DNA from: Pseudomonas sp. R76
Lineage (GTDB): Bacteria > Pseudomonadota > Gammaproteobacteria > Pseudomonadales > Pseudomonadaceae
Direction of reading: 5' to 3'
Length of the DNA: 64,000 nt
NCBI RefSeq assembly: GCF_009834565.1
Contig: NZ_CP019428.1
Span: 1,736,001 to 1,800,000 of the forward strand
Numbering within the stretch: position 1 is the stretch's first letter; each line of letters begins with the position of its first letter. A program made the translations under genes and the position numbers. Below, piece by piece: positions 49,756 to 57,104 of this stretch. The notes under the pieces are model-generated. The model was not told the origin of the DNA, searched no databases, and was given only the letters and a program-made list of their open reading frames with translations.

Positions 49756-50058
49756 ATGACGCAAGAACCTAGCACCCTCTATGCCAAGCTGCTCGGTGAA
49801 ACCGCCGAAATATCCTGGAAGGAGCTTGAGCCGTTCTTCGCCAAGGGTGCCCTATTGTGGGTCGACGCCGGCCTGGATTTGATCGAAGCGGCCGAGGGAA
49901 TGGCCGAGGATAACCGCGACAAAGTCGCTGCATGGCTGGCTGCGGGGAGCCTTGGCGAGGTGTCTGCAACGCGGGCATTGGACTTGGTTGAGCGTGATCC
50001 GAGCTTGTGGGCAGTGGTGGTTTCACCGTGGATCCTGATCCAGGAAAGGGCAGCGTAA
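49756..50058 (+). CDS. DUF2288 family protein
   Basis: This 100-residue soluble protein carries the DUF2288 pattern (ISWKELEPFFAKGALLWVDAGLDLIEAA, then ERDPSLWAVVVSPWILIQE). It contains no signal or membrane segment. The function is unknown. The family is mostly in gamma-proteobacteria. The following 298 bp up to the tubulin-like gene hold only a REP pair. Confidence 0.85.
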   Translation: MTQEPSTLYAKLLGETAEISWKELEPFFAKGALLWVDAGLDLIEAAEGMAEDNRDKVAAWLAAGSLGEVSATRALDLVERDPSLWAVVVSPWILIQERAA

Positions 50059-50265
50059 GAAGCGCATGCACGAAACTGGTGCGTGATTTTAGTCGGCGCA
50101 AGTGTGTAGCGGAGTAACCGCTGGCGCCGTGATGGCACCTTGCCGTAGAGAAAGGTCACAGGTGAGGGTGACGTGCGCGTCACGGGAACAGTTTGGCGCG
50201 GGGCTGAAGGCTCGGGGAATTGTTTCTGGGTGTGGCAAAGATGCAGGTATGCAGTGGCTGACAGG

Positions 50266-50346
50266 CCGCTATCGCAGGCAAGCCAGCTCCCACATTTGAT
50301 CGGGGTCCACCGTTCGAATGTGGGAGCTGGCTTGCCTGCGATGGCC
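50266..50346. repeat. REP pair of the TGTGGGAGCTGGCTTGCC family
   Basis: CCGCTATCGCAGGCAAGCCAGCTCCCACA faces TGTGGGAGCTGGCTTGCCTGCGATGGCCGCG. It ends 10 bp from the stop of the tubulin-like gene. Confidence 0.85.
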
Positions 50347-50356
50347 GCGACGCGGT

Positions 50357-52534
50357 TTAAGCCGTCTTGCCGGTATGGTTATTCAACGAAATCACCTTGG
50401 TCTTGCCAATCCGATGACGATAAATCTCTCGCAGATACTTGATCGCTTTCTTCACACAATCCCGTGACAGGCGAATATCGTTAATCGACACAAACTTCTC
50501 CTTGTCGTTGATCAGCTCGCGATACTTCTTCTCGTACATCGGCTTGATCGCATACCAGTTGGTATCCAGGATCTTCGCCGGGTTCTCGAACTCATTGAGC
50601 AGCTCATCAATCCGGCCTTCGTCAAAATCCTCATGGATGATGAAATCCAGAATCGAATTATCCAGCGTGTCATCAAACCGGTACGGGTTGCGCGCAAAGC
50701 AGCGTTTGATAAACGCCACGATCAACGTGAGGAAATCATCCGACAAGCACGGGCTCTTGGCGATCAAGGTGGTCAGCGACAAGTTGGCCGACGCGCCGAT
50801 CACCAACGCATAGCGCTTGAGCGTCGTGTTGGGAAACAGGCTGTTAAGGTGGGTCTTGAGTCGGTTCAAGTCCATGTACGACAGCTTGTAATCCTTGGGC
50901 AAGGACACAATCGACACCACCGACGAGCAGTTCTTGAAGAAGTGCAGGTCATGCAGCGCCGCCGCGTCATACCCGGAATTCTTGTACTGCTCCAAAGACG
51001 CCTTGTAGCGCTTGGACTCAATCGGCAACAAGCTGATGCCCTCGATGGCCTGGGTCACCTTGTTGAAGTGCGGCAGATCGATCGAGCGGAAAAACAGGTC
51101 ATCGATATTCAGCCGCTGTGGCTCTTTATCAAACACCTTGAACTTGTCGTTGGACGGCGCCGGCGTTTCCGGCACCACGGACTCGGCATAAGCAATCGCC
51201 ACCGGCCCGGCCAGGCTCATGAACAGGTCGTTGGCATCCAGGCGGATGGTTTCGCCGATGTCGATGCCCGCGCGACGGAAGTAGTTCTGGTCGTAGTCCG
51301 TGGTCACCGCCTGGGCGGTGAGGATGTTGAAGATCTGCTGCGAGATGTACTGGTTCGCGTGTTTTTCCATGGCATTGACGTCAATGTTCTGGATATTGCC
51401 GTCATCGCTCTCTTCGGCGTAACGCATGATGTCGTTGGAAATCAGCATCATCGCGTTCCACGGGCGAATGCGGCCTTTCACGCTGGCCTCGCTGCTGTCT
51501 TCGTTGTCGAAGTTGTATGAGAAATCCCATTCTTCCGACAGGTATTTGCACAACAGCCGCCCGGCGTTGATGTGCAACGCCTCGGACATTTCGCTGCGGT
51601 GGTCGGAAATATTCGGCAGCACGCAGATGCCGCTGGTGAAGATCGGCTCGAACACAAAGGCATGGCCGCTCTTGCTGTCGTGCTCGTCGGCCGGTTTGGT
51701 GTCGAACGTCTTGTTCATGTACGAGTGTTGCTGGGCCAGGCCGAATTCCGAGGCCATGCCCGAACCCGTGCCGCCGCCGGCGCTGAAGATCGAAAAGTAC
51801 AGGCGCGACTGGTTGGCCTTGATGCCACAGGAGTCGATCAGGTACGAGTGGATCATCTTCCAGTCAGGGCTGGAAAAACGCTGGGTGTCTTTGTTGAGGA
51901 TGATCTTGGCCAGGTACTGGCCGAGGATCGGCGCGTTACCGGCGCCACCGGCATGCACCTCCGACAGGTCCATGATCTTCATTTTGCTGTAGTCGCGCAG
52001 GAACCCGCTTTTTTCGCCCTTGCGCGAGAAGCGGATGCGCCCGGCGATGTCCTTGTCCAAATCGCCCAGCATCACCAATGGCTCCACCAGGAACACCGGC
52101 TTGGTGGCCTTGCCGCCGCCCAGGCGCAGGTTGTTGCGAATCCATTGGGCCGGGCTGTAGCCCTTGTCTGTCGACTTGTCTTCAGTGCTGAACTCGTTCA
52201 AGTAAAACTTGCGCGCGTTGTACACCAGCTCCGCCACGTCCAAGGCAATGTTGGAACCGCAGCGGCCCAGGCCGATCAGGCACACCGACGGAAACTCTTG
52301 CTCACTGCGCGCATCACCGTCGCCTTCCTGCTGGGGCAGGCAGGGGAACACCATGTCGCGCAGGCCGTCGAGGTTGTCGAGGATGCGGTCGGTGTTGGTT
52401 TCGGTGAAGTACAGGTACTGCTGGGTGGCCAGCGGGCGGGCGTTGCTCAATGACTTGGAGCCTGAGGGTTTTTCCGCAGGAACGGTGGGCAACACGTCGG
52501 ATACCACGGTGGCAGAGTTATTTTTGGAAGTCAT
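50357..52534 (-). CDS. Tubulin/FtsZ-superfamily GTPase-like protein, unknown function
   Basis: This 725-residue protein has an N-terminal 80-residue disordered lead, then VCLIGLGRCGSNIALD (about 85-100), which matches the first glycine loop of tubulin-like GTPases, and SAGGGTGSGMASEFG (251-265), the tubulin/FtsZ signature GGGTGSG. Between them is GGAGNAPILGQYL, a second glycine-rich turn. The C-terminal third is helical and charged with no match I recognise. It is likely a Tubulin-like (FtsZl-type) family member and not cell-division FtsZ, which is half as long. No partner gene adjoins it. The start at 52534 is chosen because no other start has a ribosome site. The T7 aspartate loop could not be assigned, so polymer formation is a guess. 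Confidence 0.8.
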   Translation of the reverse strand: MTSKNNSATVVSDVLPTVPAEKPSGSKSLSNARPLATQQYLYFTETNTDRILDNLDGLRDMVFPCLPQQEGDGDARSEQEFPSVCLIGLGRCGSNIALDVAELVYNARKFYLNEFSTEDKSTDKGYSPAQWIRNNLRLGGGKATKPVFLVEPLVMLGDLDKDIAGRIRFSRKGEKSGFLRDYSKMKIMDLSEVHAGGAGNAPILGQYLAKIILNKDTQRFSSPDWKMIHSYLIDSCGIKANQSRLYFSIFSAGGGTGSGMASEFGLAQQHSYMNKTFDTKPADEHDSKSGHAFVFEPIFTSGICVLPNISDHRSEMSEALHINAGRLLCKYLSEEWDFSYNFDNEDSSEASVKGRIRPWNAMMLISNDIMRYAEESDDGNIQNIDVNAMEKHANQYISQQIFNILTAQAVTTDYDQNYFRRAGIDIGETIRLDANDLFMSLAGPVAIAYAESVVPETPAPSNDKFKVFDKEPQRLNIDDLFFRSIDLPHFNKVTQAIEGISLLPIESKRYKASLEQYKNSGYDAAALHDLHFFKNCSSVVSIVSLPKDYKLSYMDLNRLKTHLNSLFPNTTLKRYALVIGASANLSLTTLIAKSPCLSDDFLTLIVAFIKRCFARNPYRFDDTLDNSILDFIIHEDFDEGRIDELLNEFENPAKILDTNWYAIKPMYEKKYRELINDKEKFVSINDIRLSRDCVKKAIKYLREIYRHRIGKTKVISLNNHTGKTA

Positions 52535-52736
52535 TGGGCGCCATGTACCTGGACGGATGGCCAAAAAATCAGGGAGCCATCACTGAATGAGAGTTCGCGA
52601 CTTTACAGTGCGTCTGAGTCCGGGCCGGTCGGGTTTAACCCCAGTTGCGCTAGGGGAATACTGGCCGGACTCTGATGAATCGGCCGTTCGTCGGCGTTCT
52701 TTAGGCAAATGATGGCTAAATGCCAAATATTCGGCG

Positions 52737-55016
52737 TCAGCGAATTGGCCTGACGGTAGAAGGGGGACCGATACGGCCTGGGTTGGCCTCTTTCGACGCA
52801 GACGTGTCCTTGGTGCCTTCCACGCTGAAGGGATAGAGCGGGTTGCGCATCTGAATGCCCTGCATCACGCCAACGATGTCACTGAAGGGCACCGCCGGGC
52901 TCAACAAATAGCCCTGAATGAAATCGCAGTCGTGCTTAAGCAGCAGCTCAAATTGCGCTTGGGTTTCCACGCCCTCGGTCACAACCTGCAGATGCAGGGT
53001 GTGAGCCATGCCAATAATCGCCTGGACGATCTCGATATCGGCGGTGGACTTGGGAATGTCCTGGATAAATGAACGGTCGATCTTCAAGGTATTGAGCGGC
53101 AGGCGCTTGAGGTAAGCCAACGATGAGTAACCGGTGCCGAAATCATCAATGGCCAGCGATACGCCCAGGGCGCGGATTTGCCGCAACAGCGCCAGCGTAC
53201 TGCTGATATTGCCCATCAGTGCGTTTTCGGTCACCTCCAGCTCAAGGCGGTTGGCGGCAATCCCGGCGAAGCGCAGGGCGGCTTCGATTTCATCCGCCAA
53301 CTCGTCACGGGCCAGGTTCAGCGCCGAGCAGTTCACGGCCATGGTCAACTCGGTGTAGCCGCGGTCGGACAACAGGCTCAAATCGTGGCAAGCCTGGCGC
53401 AACACCCAGTGGTCCAGGTCGGCAATCAACCCGTTGTTTTCGGCAATCCCGATAAACCGGTCCGGGGCCAGCAGCCCGTGTTGCGGGTGCTGCCAGCGTA
53501 CCAGGGCTTCCAGCCGAGTGACCTTGCCGAGCTTCATGTCGAAGATCGGCTGGTAAAACAGCACCAACTGATTGCGGCCACGCAGGGCTGCGCGCAATTC
53601 CTCTTCCAGTTGCAGTTCGAGGAACGCACGGGTTTTCAGGTTGGAGCTGAAAAAGTTGAGGCTGTTGCGCCCGGTGTCCTTGGACTGGTAAAGCGCCAGG
53701 TCGGCCGTTTTCAGCAGTTCTTCGCAACTCAAGCCGTCCTCGGGAAACAGGCTGATGCCGATGCTGGTGGTCATCACCATGCGCCGGCCGGCCAGTTCGA
53801 TCGGTTCTTTCATCTTCTGCATGATGCGCTGCGCCAAGTGCCGCGCTTCGTCGCGATGGTGAATGCTGATCAGGATGCAGAACTCATCGCCGCCAAACCG
53901 CGCGACCACATCCTCGTGGCTGCGTACCGAGCCTTTGATATGCCCGGCAAGTACCGTGAGCAACTGGTCGCCGGCGTCATGCCCCAGGCTGTCGTTGATG
54001 CGCTTGAAATGGTCGATATCGAGGAAGATCACCGCCATCATGCCGCGACTGGCGGTTTTTTCTGCGACTTTCTCTGCAAAGATCTGGTTGAAGCCGCGAC
54101 GGTTGAGCAGGCTGGTCAGCGCGTCAAAGTGCGCCACCTGTTGCAGCGAGGCGCGGGCTTGGTCGAGTTCGCTGAGCAGGGCGTTGACCCGGCGCAGGTC
54201 GCGTTCCTTGTGCTGCAGCTTTTTGTCCGCCAGGGCCGCGCTGACGCTGCTGCCGATTACCAGCAAGGTAATCACGGCGACTGACAGGCCGAGTTGAATC
54301 GGGTTGTTGTCCAGTGGCAACGACAGGTCAGCTTCGGTCGGCACCAGCATTTGCATGGCGGCCATGCCGGTGAAGTGCATGCTCAAGATCCCGGCGCCCA
54401 GCACCAGGCTGGCGGCGTATTTAAGCAGTTGATGGAACACGCCCGTACCGTTGCGCAGGTAGCACGACAGCAACAGCGCGGCCAGGCTGGCGCCAATCGC
54501 GATGCCGACCGACGCCATGAACAGCCTCGAGTCGAAGTACACCTGCGCCTGGGAGTGCATGGCCGACATGCCGACGTAGTGCATCAACGCAATGCCCAGG
54601 CCCATCCAGATAGAGGCCAGCAGGTACTGATGAAAGCGCAGTTGGGCATGACTGAGGGTTTGCATGGCAAACAGCGAGGCAATCAATGCGATCACCAGCG
54701 AGGCGAACGTCATGAGCAATTCGTAATGAATGGCGATAGGCGCCTGGAACGCCAGCATGCTGATGAAGTGGGTCGACCAGATGCCGCCTGCCAGGCAACC
54801 GGCGCCGAGCCAGCGCCAATGGCGACGGGCGGTGGGGTCTTCGACATGCCCGACGCGTTCAGCCATGTCCAACGTGCCAAACCCGGCCGCGCAAGCGACC
54901 AGGTAAGCCAACAACACCAGAAAGGGGTTATGACTGCAATTGAGTAATAATTGCCCGCTGTCCGGAAGGTCGGTAAAAAAATGCATACCTAGCCATTCCA
55001 TAGCATGTCCCGTCAA
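52737..55016 (-). CDS. MHYT-GGDEF-EAL cyclic-di-GMP signalling protein
   Basis: This 759-residue inner-membrane protein has three MHYT sensor units (HFISMLAF, ALMHYVGMSAM, ILSMHFTGMAAM in about residues 1-240), implicated in binding copper and sensing gases. A GGDEF domain with an intact RFGGDEF motif (about 370) and an EAL domain with EALVRW, DDFGTGYSS and VTEGVET follow. Both catalytic domains keep key residues, so it could make and break c-di-GMP. Several in-frame ATGs lie between 54986 and 55016. Confidence 0.92.
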   Translation of the reverse strand: MTGHAMEWLGMHFFTDLPDSGQLLLNCSHNPFLVLLAYLVACAAGFGTLDMAERVGHVEDPTARRHWRWLGAGCLAGGIWSTHFISMLAFQAPIAIHYELLMTFASLVIALIASLFAMQTLSHAQLRFHQYLLASIWMGLGIALMHYVGMSAMHSQAQVYFDSRLFMASVGIAIGASLAALLLSCYLRNGTGVFHQLLKYAASLVLGAGILSMHFTGMAAMQMLVPTEADLSLPLDNNPIQLGLSVAVITLLVIGSSVSAALADKKLQHKERDLRRVNALLSELDQARASLQQVAHFDALTSLLNRRGFNQIFAEKVAEKTASRGMMAVIFLDIDHFKRINDSLGHDAGDQLLTVLAGHIKGSVRSHEDVVARFGGDEFCILISIHHRDEARHLAQRIMQKMKEPIELAGRRMVMTTSIGISLFPEDGLSCEELLKTADLALYQSKDTGRNSLNFFSSNLKTRAFLELQLEEELRAALRGRNQLVLFYQPIFDMKLGKVTRLEALVRWQHPQHGLLAPDRFIGIAENNGLIADLDHWVLRQACHDLSLLSDRGYTELTMAVNCSALNLARDELADEIEAALRFAGIAANRLELEVTENALMGNISSTLALLRQIRALGVSLAIDDFGTGYSSLAYLKRLPLNTLKIDRSFIQDIPKSTADIEIVQAIIGMAHTLHLQVVTEGVETQAQFELLLKHDCDFIQGYLLSPAVPFSDIVGVMQGIQMRNPLYPFSVEGTKDTSASKEANPGRIGPPSTVRPIR

Positions 55017-55506: not shown

Positions 55507-55757
55507 GGGCGTCATCGATAAGAAAAGTAGGATTGGGTATTACAGGAAGGCTCGCCATTCTATCCGTGGCGTTGCCGTTGGGAAGGGGGGCGTGAACTTA
55601 TATTTTCGTAGGTAAAGTCCCGTGAAGCCGGGTGAAATCATGCCCTATCAGCTTTACGAATCATTACAGACAACCGGCCGCTGCCTGACTATGTTGCAGA
55701 CACCGGGCAGGATGCATCGGGCATCGCAGCTCTCATAACAATAAAAGAGACGGACCC

Positions 55758-57104
55758 ATGCAGAACTCGACCCAAGCGGCGAATGCCTGGCGCATTCTGT
55801 TCCTGCTGTTCCTCGCCAACCTGTTCAATTTCTTCGACCGCACCATCCCCGCGATCATCATCGAGCCAATCCGCATGGAATGGCACCTGAGCGACTTCCA
55901 GCTCGGCATCATCGGCACCGCCTTCACCATTGTCTACGCCATCGCCGGCCTGCCGCTCGGGCGCCTGGCCGACACCGGTTCGCGCAGCAAACTGATGGGC
56001 TGGGGCTTGTTTGCCTGGAGCGGGCTGACGGCGATCAACGGCATGGTCGGCAGCTTCTGGACCTTTTTGCTGGTGCGCATGGGCATTGGCATTGGCGAAG
56101 CCAGCTATGCGCCGGCGGCCAACTCGCTGATTGGCGACCTGTTTCCGGCGCACCGCCGCGCCCGCGCCATGGGCATTTTCATGCTCGGTTTGCCATTGGG
56201 TCTGCTGCTGGCGTTCTTCACCATCGGCGCGATGGTCAAGGCGTTCGACAGCTGGCGCGCGCCGTTCTTTATTGCCGCCGTGCCGGGGATGATCCTCGCG
56301 GTGTTCATGTTCTATATCAAGGAACCCAAGCGCGGCGCGGCCGAAACCGTGCAGGTGTCCCAGGAGCGCGTCGACCGCCCGATTCGCCGCGTGCTGGCGG
56401 TGCCGACCTTTCTGTGGCTGGTGCTGGCCGGGCTGTGCTTCAACTTCGCCACCTACGCGTGTAACTCGTTCCTGGTGCCGATGCTGCAGCGCTACTTCCT
56501 CATGCCATTGCAGGAAGCGGCCGTTGCCACCGGCGTGATCGTGGGTATTACCGGGCTTGTCGGGCTGACCTTGGGCGGCTGGATTGCCGACAAGATCCAT
56601 CAGCGTGTCGCCAATGGCCGGCTGCTGTTTGCGGCGTGCAGCTTGATCATCTCCACTGTCACCACCGCCTGGGCATTGCACGCCGGGCGCATCGAGATTG
56701 GCGTGTTTGTGGCGCTGTTCAGTGTGGGCTGGCTGTTTGCCTATAACTTCTACACCTGCGTGTACACGGCGATTCAAGACGTGGTTGAGCCACGCTTGCG
56801 GGCCACGGCGATGGCACTGTTCTTTGCCGGGTTGTATTTGCTCGGTGGTGGCATGGGGCCAATTGTCGTGGGCGGGCTGTCGGATCACTTTGCCCATTCG
56901 GCGATGTACGCCGATGGCGCGGCGCAGATGACTGAAGCGTACAAGGCGGTCGGGTTGCATGACGCCATGTACCTGATCCCGGTGGCGCTGTTCTTGACCA
57001 TGCTGTTTCTGTTCCAGGCCTCGCGCAGCTTTGTGCGTGATGCCAAGCGGATGAAGGATGGGTTGGGGGCGGTGGAGGTGCCGGCTGCGGCGGCTGTAGC
57101 TTGA
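55758..57104 (+). CDS. MFS transporter, spinster-like
   Basis: This 448-residue protein has 12 predicted helices and the MFS motifs GRLADTGSRSKLMG (between TM2 and TM3) and RMGIGIGEASYAPAANS (TM4). The TM1 pattern NLFNFFDRTIPAIIIEPIR suits the Spinster/anion-transporter-like group. The substrate is unknown. A bidirectional terminator follows. Confidence 0.88.
   Translation: MQNSTQAANAWRILFLLFLANLFNFFDRTIPAIIIEPIRMEWHLSDFQLGIIGTAFTIVYAIAGLPLGRLADTGSRSKLMGWGLFAWSGLTAINGMVGSFWTFLLVRMGIGIGEASYAPAANSLIGDLFPAHRRARAMGIFMLGLPLGLLLAFFTIGAMVKAFDSWRAPFFIAAVPGMILAVFMFYIKEPKRGAAETVQVSQERVDRPIRRVLAVPTFLWLVLAGLCFNFATYACNSFLVPMLQRYFLMPLQEAAVATGVIVGITGLVGLTLGGWIADKIHQRVANGRLLFAACSLIISTVTTAWALHAGRIEIGVFVALFSVGWLFAYNFYTCVYTAIQDVVEPRLRATAMALFFAGLYLLGGGMGPIVVGGLSDHFAHSAMYADGAAQMTEAYKAVGLHDAMYLIPVALFLTMLFLFQASRSFVRDAKRMKDGLGAVEVPAAAAVA

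Follow-up and report, generated by a model that had tools for sequence, protein, structure and literature searches.

The locus at positions 50357 to 52534 of the Pseudomonas sp. R76 DNA analysed here (a stretch of 64,000 nucleotides, referred to as the window) raises the question of what kind of protein it encodes and what this protein could do in the cell. The frame spanning these positions counts 725 codons and lies on the minus strand, with the ATG at 52534 and a stop ending at 50357. The coordinates and the length of 725 residues given in the preliminary description thus hold; the strand is minus, and stops interrupt the plus-strand reading. The start at 52534 is supported by P0002, a protein recovered in the homologue search that is 97% identical to the window protein (P0001) and annotated with an identical length. 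The dN/dS ratio ranged from 0.037 to 0.218 in the seven of ten comparisons with unsaturated dS, the three others being left out for saturation. The ORF is real and under strong purifying selection. Its first 80 residues had been taken for an unstructured lead, a description that needs correction: the variable lead covers only about 40 residues and is followed by a conserved segment, YLYFTETNTDRILDNLDGLRDMVFP (residues 40-64; 52343..52417, minus strand), in which none of the 79 aligned family members deviates at eight positions between 44 and 64 (T44, E45, I51, L52, N54, D56, R59 and P64).

We searched about 5.8 billion proteins for homologues, scored 7,995 candidates and obtained 662 homologues of P0001 at E<=0.001; those with a name among the matches listed, the best 120 of these 662, come from Pseudomonas, Ectopseudomonas, Rheinheimera, Arsukibacterium and the like. 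Further marine Gammaproteobacteria were recovered with a Marinomonas member as the query. Among 227 proteins from both searches, the lowest pairwise identity was 63.6%, counting pairs whose alignment exceeded 500 residues; judged by these identities, the FtsZl2-type proteins found here are a tight family. The FtsZ-like 2 (FtsZl2) family was named by Makarova and Koonin in 2010, with PFL_1302 of P. fluorescens Pf-5 as its type (PMC2875224). The part of their article that deals with FtsZl2 describes a proteobacterial family with inserts between T1 and T4 and a mixed alpha/beta C-terminal region of ~300 residues without relatives and no coiled-coil domain; it reports T6, H7 and T7 in these proteins and expects them to form filaments, and it ties the family to no other genes, the authors adding that no functional clue could be obtained (PMC2875224). 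Pseudomonas fluorescens and Marinomonas are both named in the legend of its Figure 1, which covers all families together. By these described features and taxa, P0001 is very probably an FtsZl2 member and not a new kind of protein. The term orphan is therefore no longer tenable, considering the 662 homologues and the fit to FtsZl2 as published (PMC2875224). The GGGTG(S/T)G feature of FtsZl2 was present in 79 of 79 aligned members.

Other resources added little. Pfam and NCBIfam scans gave no relatives of the C-terminal region of P0001 and no PDB sequence matched it below E 0.1, while no family of PADLOC or PHROGs matched P0001. DUF6562 also matched 9 of the 20 members scanned, with a best E of 0.00076; these matches were presumed to be due to chance. 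In the open-licence literature we found no functional study of FtsZl2 after 2010: PMC7327170 proved to be a false match concerning FtsZ L272E, and PMC9871819, in its available part, treats Tubulin_2-type FtsZ-like proteins. Within the tubulin superfamily, FtsZl2 has thus received little study since its description in 2010.

Of the 99 Pseudomonas genomes sampled, 68 carry the gene and 31 lack it; among the 95 genomes of good quality the figures are 68 and 27. There is a single match per matching genome except in G076, where two pieces were found. At the site expected for the whole gene, between livK and EAL, genome G068 (L166, C18:344500-350000) contains a remnant of which residues 382-725 alone align, so that the T1/T3/T4 part is missing and the C-terminal part kept. 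Among eight other Pseudomonas regions compared, three genomes (G038, G057 and G094) carry EAL and livK with no FtsZl2 between them. FtsZl2 is accessory in Pseudomonas, as indicated by the 31 genomes without the gene, the gene-free sites and the G068 remnant. In whole-genome searches, which covered the window's own phylum, 9 of 398 genomes and 3 of 212 genera matched, one of these nine (G481) only in fragments interrupted by stops and changes of frame; a profile search of the class matched 2 of 369 genomes, one of them being the P0001 genome itself (G000). The 80 named loci, the top 80 among 553 confirmed relatives, come from many genera, all Pseudomonadota. Horizontal transfer is suggested by a quick tree in which Paraglaciecola occupies two well supported places, one of them among Marinomonas.

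Three glycine-rich loops on the minus strand carry the assignment of P0001 to a superfamily. A T1-like loop, GLGRCGSN, covers residues 88-95 (52250..52273), the motif having been reported correctly but at 89-96; a T3-like loop, GAGNAPILG, covers residues 197-205 (51920..51946); and the T4 signature GGGTGSG lies at residues 253-259 (51758..51778), exactly where it had been placed before, within the stretch 247-263 matched by Pfam PF00091. Using the strict patterns G[ILVMA]G..G.N, GAG..P..G and GGGTG[ST]G, we found T1, T3 and T4 in 79, 72 and 79 of the 79 aligned members, respectively, and in the seven members outside the strict T3 pattern GSG replaces GAG (Ser for Ala). The background consisted of 905 further ORFs, at least 250 aa long and called mechanically from the surroundings of the family loci, not all of them genes; in these 401,474 residues T1 and T3 each matched once and T4 never. 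In a joint MAFFT alignment of 40 of the 79 family rows with 30 FtsZ sequences, the columns of the three loops coincided with T1, T3 and T4 of FtsZ in three modes. The FtsZ order of the loops, their near-absence from the background and the matching columns make kinship with FtsZ likely, so that P0001 likely belongs to the tubulin/FtsZ superfamily as far as its sequence can tell. For P0001, Pfam gave weak similarities to Tubulin_2 (PF13809; residues 234-380, E 0.0011, 18.8 bits, below the 27-bit cut-off) and to Tubulin (PF00091; E 0.0024, 18.6 bits, below the 33-bit cut-off), and both families were matched in 20 of 20 members scanned, although weakly and with E up to 1 allowed. The NCBIfam scan of P0001 returned no family at E<=1, hence no TIGR00065 match. 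Thus, the earlier claim of tubulin-superfamily membership gains from the ordered T1-T3-T4 loops and the weak Pfam matches, but the Pfam scores of P0001 are sub-threshold and the structural models were too poor to show a tubulin fold.

Downstream of T4, a possible T6, ISND (residues 365-368; 51431..51442, minus strand), was picked by eye from the alignment, I365 and D368 being present in 79 of 79 members. A candidate T7 loop, RLDANDL (residues 431-437; 51224..51244, minus strand), contains an Asp pair, of which D433 is found in 79 of 79 rows and D436 in 78, the remaining row having a gap there; both are invariant in a 57-row alignment. D433/D436 is a candidate only, since MAFFT places the FtsZ T7 elsewhere, at 383-388 with L-INS-i and at 550-555 with the other two modes. 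On a slight balance of probability, we regard P0001 as a large GTP-binding protein of the FtsZl2 family that forms its own filaments and has an accessory role, outside both cell division and DNA segregation. GTP would be bound through T1, T3 and T4, and monomers would stack head to tail, D433/D436 completing the GTP pocket of the next subunit, so that catalysis would proceed through T7 as in FtsZ. The filament would be decorated by the inserts specific to the family and by the C-terminal region, and a basic amphipathic helix near the C-terminus would attach it to the membrane or to a partner whose gene lies elsewhere. Cell division is already served by a separate ftsZ, the one TIGR00065 match of this genome (C1:1251660). 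The filament system without a described role that had been suggested beforehand remains plausible.

The strongest competitor is a GTP switch or sensor of the tubulin superfamily that does not polymerise, with the inserts and the C-terminal region acting as an effector or binding platform. Such a protein fits the insecure location of T7 in the MAFFT alignments, the distance of 165 residues between T1 and T4 compared with ~85 in the FtsZ whose residues were numbered for comparison, the C-terminal half without known relatives and the residue-level conservation along the chain. However, the conserved Asp pair downstream of T4 has the DxxD spacing of the FtsZ T7, and the published account, in its part on FtsZl2, has T6, H7 and T7 in place and expects filaments (PMC2875224). 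A non-polymerising switch is thus possible, though rather unlikely.

The C-terminal half (residues 423-725; 50360..51268, minus strand) was modelled with AlphaFold2 on 57 rows, giving a weak model with helices and strands (mean pLDDT 58.2, pTM 0.56), while the full-length model reached a pLDDT of 42.9. Both models are poor, and neither gave a significant structural match; Foldseek found none at E<=0.001 for the model of 423-725. These two low-confidence models gave no usable answer, and the preliminary description of the C-terminal half as one of unknown fold stands. Near the C-terminus, residues 687-711 (50402..50476, minus strand) are predicted to form a basic amphipathic helix: the window starting at 687 (687-708) has the highest hydrophobic moment of P0001, and the weak model places a helix at 691-711. 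This helix is the top amphipathic window in 47 of 79 members, with a median charge of +5, and may dock to a membrane or a partner. Its residues are conserved position by position in the alignment, as would be expected of a fixed contact more than of a generic helix in a membrane.

We then looked for partners around the gene. Along the window, livK is followed by DUF2288, FtsZl2, MHYT-GGDEF-EAL, MFS and RapA. Neighbours were surveyed at 81 loci under 21 genus labels by single-linkage clustering of ORFs, excluding the gene and the ORFs overlapping it. No widely shared neighbour was found at these 81 loci, no cluster occurring under more than 7 of the 21 labels. The single 7-label cluster (~260 aa) lies at scattered distances from FtsZl2, and most clusters with 3 to 5 labels reflect blocks that Rheinheimera, Alkalimonas and Arsukibacterium have in common, a few generic ones occurring singly in distant genera. 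Gene strips, drawn for 76 of the 81 loci (five were lost in ORF picking), revealed no common gene order, and in a Pfam scan of 107 of the 118 ORFs that were listed as neighbours at 31 loci, the top families occurred five times each (25 of 132 families shown). The survey and the eight Pseudomonas regions indicate that there is no operon partner and that gene-free sites exist, so that the absence of an adjacent partner, asserted beforehand from the window, is borne out by the survey, the strips, the Pfam scan and the regions compared. The MHYT-GGDEF-EAL gene was rejected as a partner: G038, G057 and G094 have it by livK without FtsZl2, and G014 has FtsZl2 with EAL absent from the stretch read.

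The surroundings also gave some side observations. The MHYT-GGDEF-EAL gene, upstream of FtsZl2 (window 52737-55016, minus strand), encodes a cyclic-di-GMP protein. The DUF2288 gene (49756-50058, plus strand) lies between livK and FtsZl2, and a 134-aa ORF antisense to it aligns in several relatives. A minus-strand ORF of 423 aa without family (55689-57104) is antisense to the MFS transporter gene (55758-57104, plus strand) and aligns in the same relatives as this gene with a lower identity; it is probably a shadow ORF. Directly downstream of FtsZl2, at 50265-50348, lies an inverted repeat with 39-nt arms that are 90% complementary and a 6-nt loop, near-perfect and of the kind known as REP elements in Pseudomonas.

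The neighbourhood bears on a membrane-remodelling filament of the kind proposed for FtsZl1. The basic amphipathic helix and the analogy with FtsZl1 (PMC2875224) speak for it. However, no vWA, kinase or OmpA was seen among the window genes scanned, from the liv operon to rapA, nor in the part of the neighbour survey that was shown (25 of 132 families); membrane remodelling was argued for FtsZl1 from FtsZl1 operons, and the 2010 authors, where they discuss FtsZl2, offer no functional clue for it (PMC2875224). The idea that comparable families remodel membranes, put forward in the preliminary description, is thus indeed published, but for FtsZl1 (PMC2875224). PF13809 was found at E<=0.001 in 0 of 150 genomes of the phylum. 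We consider such a role for P0001 unlikely.

Upstream of the gene, an element resembling a FliA (sigma-28) promoter, TAAAGAACGCCGACGAACGGCCGATTC (52677..52703, minus strand), is conserved in close relatives. In the window it reads TAAAG-N14-GNCGATTC and lies ~145-170 bp before the ATG. Close relatives were defined as Pseudomonas genomes with a protein at least 86% identical, called fluorescens/putida-type from the named homologue matches; 21 of their 22 upstreams contain TAAA-N15-G[ACG]CGAT, in the form TAAAG-N14-GNCGATTC, where TTC is replaced twice by TGC and once by TCC. The same pattern was found in 0 of 4 other Pseudomonas upstreams and 0 of 80 named loci (the L097 upstream held 77 bases). 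A FliA consensus used for P. fluorescens is TAAAGTTT-N11-GCCGATAA, in the part of PMC7286023 that gives it, and the last two bases of the upstream element do not fit GCCGATAA. The element was noticed after the fact, and its FliA score of 10 alone proves nothing, since ~6% of shuffles and ~7% of controls reach this value. A best 12-position score of at least 9 was obtained for 38 of 81 loci (47%), whereas shuffled sequences reached it in 43% and the 777 control upstreams in 34% of cases; with scores this near the shuffles and the element in none of the 80 named loci, a FliA promoter was rejected as a family-wide feature.

Within the P0001 genome, TAAAG-N14-GCCGAT occurs 11 times versus 2 for the reversed control. 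A related pattern has seven other sites with loci: two lie before chemoreceptor-type genes, one at a TPP-enzyme ORF, two before small family-less ORFs, and two have no nearby ORF of 70 aa. All 24 FtsZl2-bearing genomes tested have FliA, which says little as only bearers were included. It is quite doubtful that FtsZl2 is a tubulin-like filament linked to motility or chemotaxis which, in close relatives, would be a late flagellar gene expressed from a FliA-type promoter, with the C-terminal helix on a partner encoded elsewhere. If true, this reading would offer the first functional handle on FtsZl2 and would place a tubulin-type cytoskeleton in the flagellar programme. Two further features of the upstream regions were observed. 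Between the FliA-like element and the ATG, 52535-52740 contains more conserved blocks (such as CCCCTATCGC, GCGCACTG and GTGATGGC) common to close relatives, and six loci of other Pseudomonas lineages (L042, L049, L054, L063, L079 and L093) have a different block in common, TGTATATA, so that the FtsZl2 promoter may have changed between lineages.

The loops could also belong to a nucleotide-binding protein of another fold, convergent in its glycine-rich loops. This would agree with fold tests that all failed or were indecisive, namely the poor models, hhalign and the segment HMMs. In an hhalign comparison with a profile of 30 FtsZ sequences, only GGGTGSGMA aligned (probability 4.7%; E 0.0085, calculated for one target). 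When seven FtsZ segment HMMs were run on the family, T4 alone scored above shuffles, reversed sequences scoring equally there; both methods were thus set aside as support for the superfamily, nothing being gained beyond T4. However, three FtsZ-type loops stand in order and are nearly absent from the background. Besides, of 26 GGGTGx DNA-pattern matches in the P0001 genome, four read GGGTG[ST]G, and these are FtsZ, FtsZl2 and two others in ORFs without T1 or T3. Convergence is therefore very unlikely. Elsewhere in this genome, outside the window (G000:C1:818402-818601), we noticed a dense run of GGxGGxGGxACxGG units, which may encode a Gly/Thr-rich repeat.

It is hardly credible that the chromosome has captured a TubZ-like system for DNA segregation: TubZ is indeed a divergent bacterial tubulin-superfamily partition protein of plasmids and phages, but no FtsZl2 match was obtained, at an E limit of 1e-5, in 72,556 plasmid records or 50,697 phage records, nor in a pattern-based scan of viral contigs, no repeat array was found beside the gene, and no DNA-binding family is among the nearest scanned window neighbours.

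We thus return to an accessory GTP-binding filament as the preferred reading. The presence of FtsZl2 in 68 of 99 Pseudomonas genomes means that genetics could show whether a second tubulin-type filament exists that serves neither division nor segregation.

Compared with known systems, P0001 differs from TubZ in that FtsZl2 is chromosomal, lacks an adjacent partner or repeat array and is absent from the mobile-element collections searched. It shares with FtsZ (TIGR00065) the T1, T3 and T4 loop patterns in the FtsZ order, but has 725 aa and inserts whereas the 30 FtsZ proteins extracted have 385-589 aa. Its likeness to FtsZl1/Tubulin_2 (PF13809) is the weak sub-threshold Pfam similarity over residues 234-380, while it differs by reaching only 18.8 of 27 bits and by having no vWA/kinase/GTPase/OmpA operon in the window. 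Against the published part on FtsZl2 we found no difference, the comparison being one of features and taxa from which we infer orthology to PFL_1302 (PMC2875224). Like FtsZl2 as described there, P0001 comes from a P. fluorescens-type source, carries GGGTG(S/T)G, has inserts separating T1 from T4 and a C-terminal region without relatives that is ~300 residues long, and is encoded by a gene linked to no others (PMC2875224).
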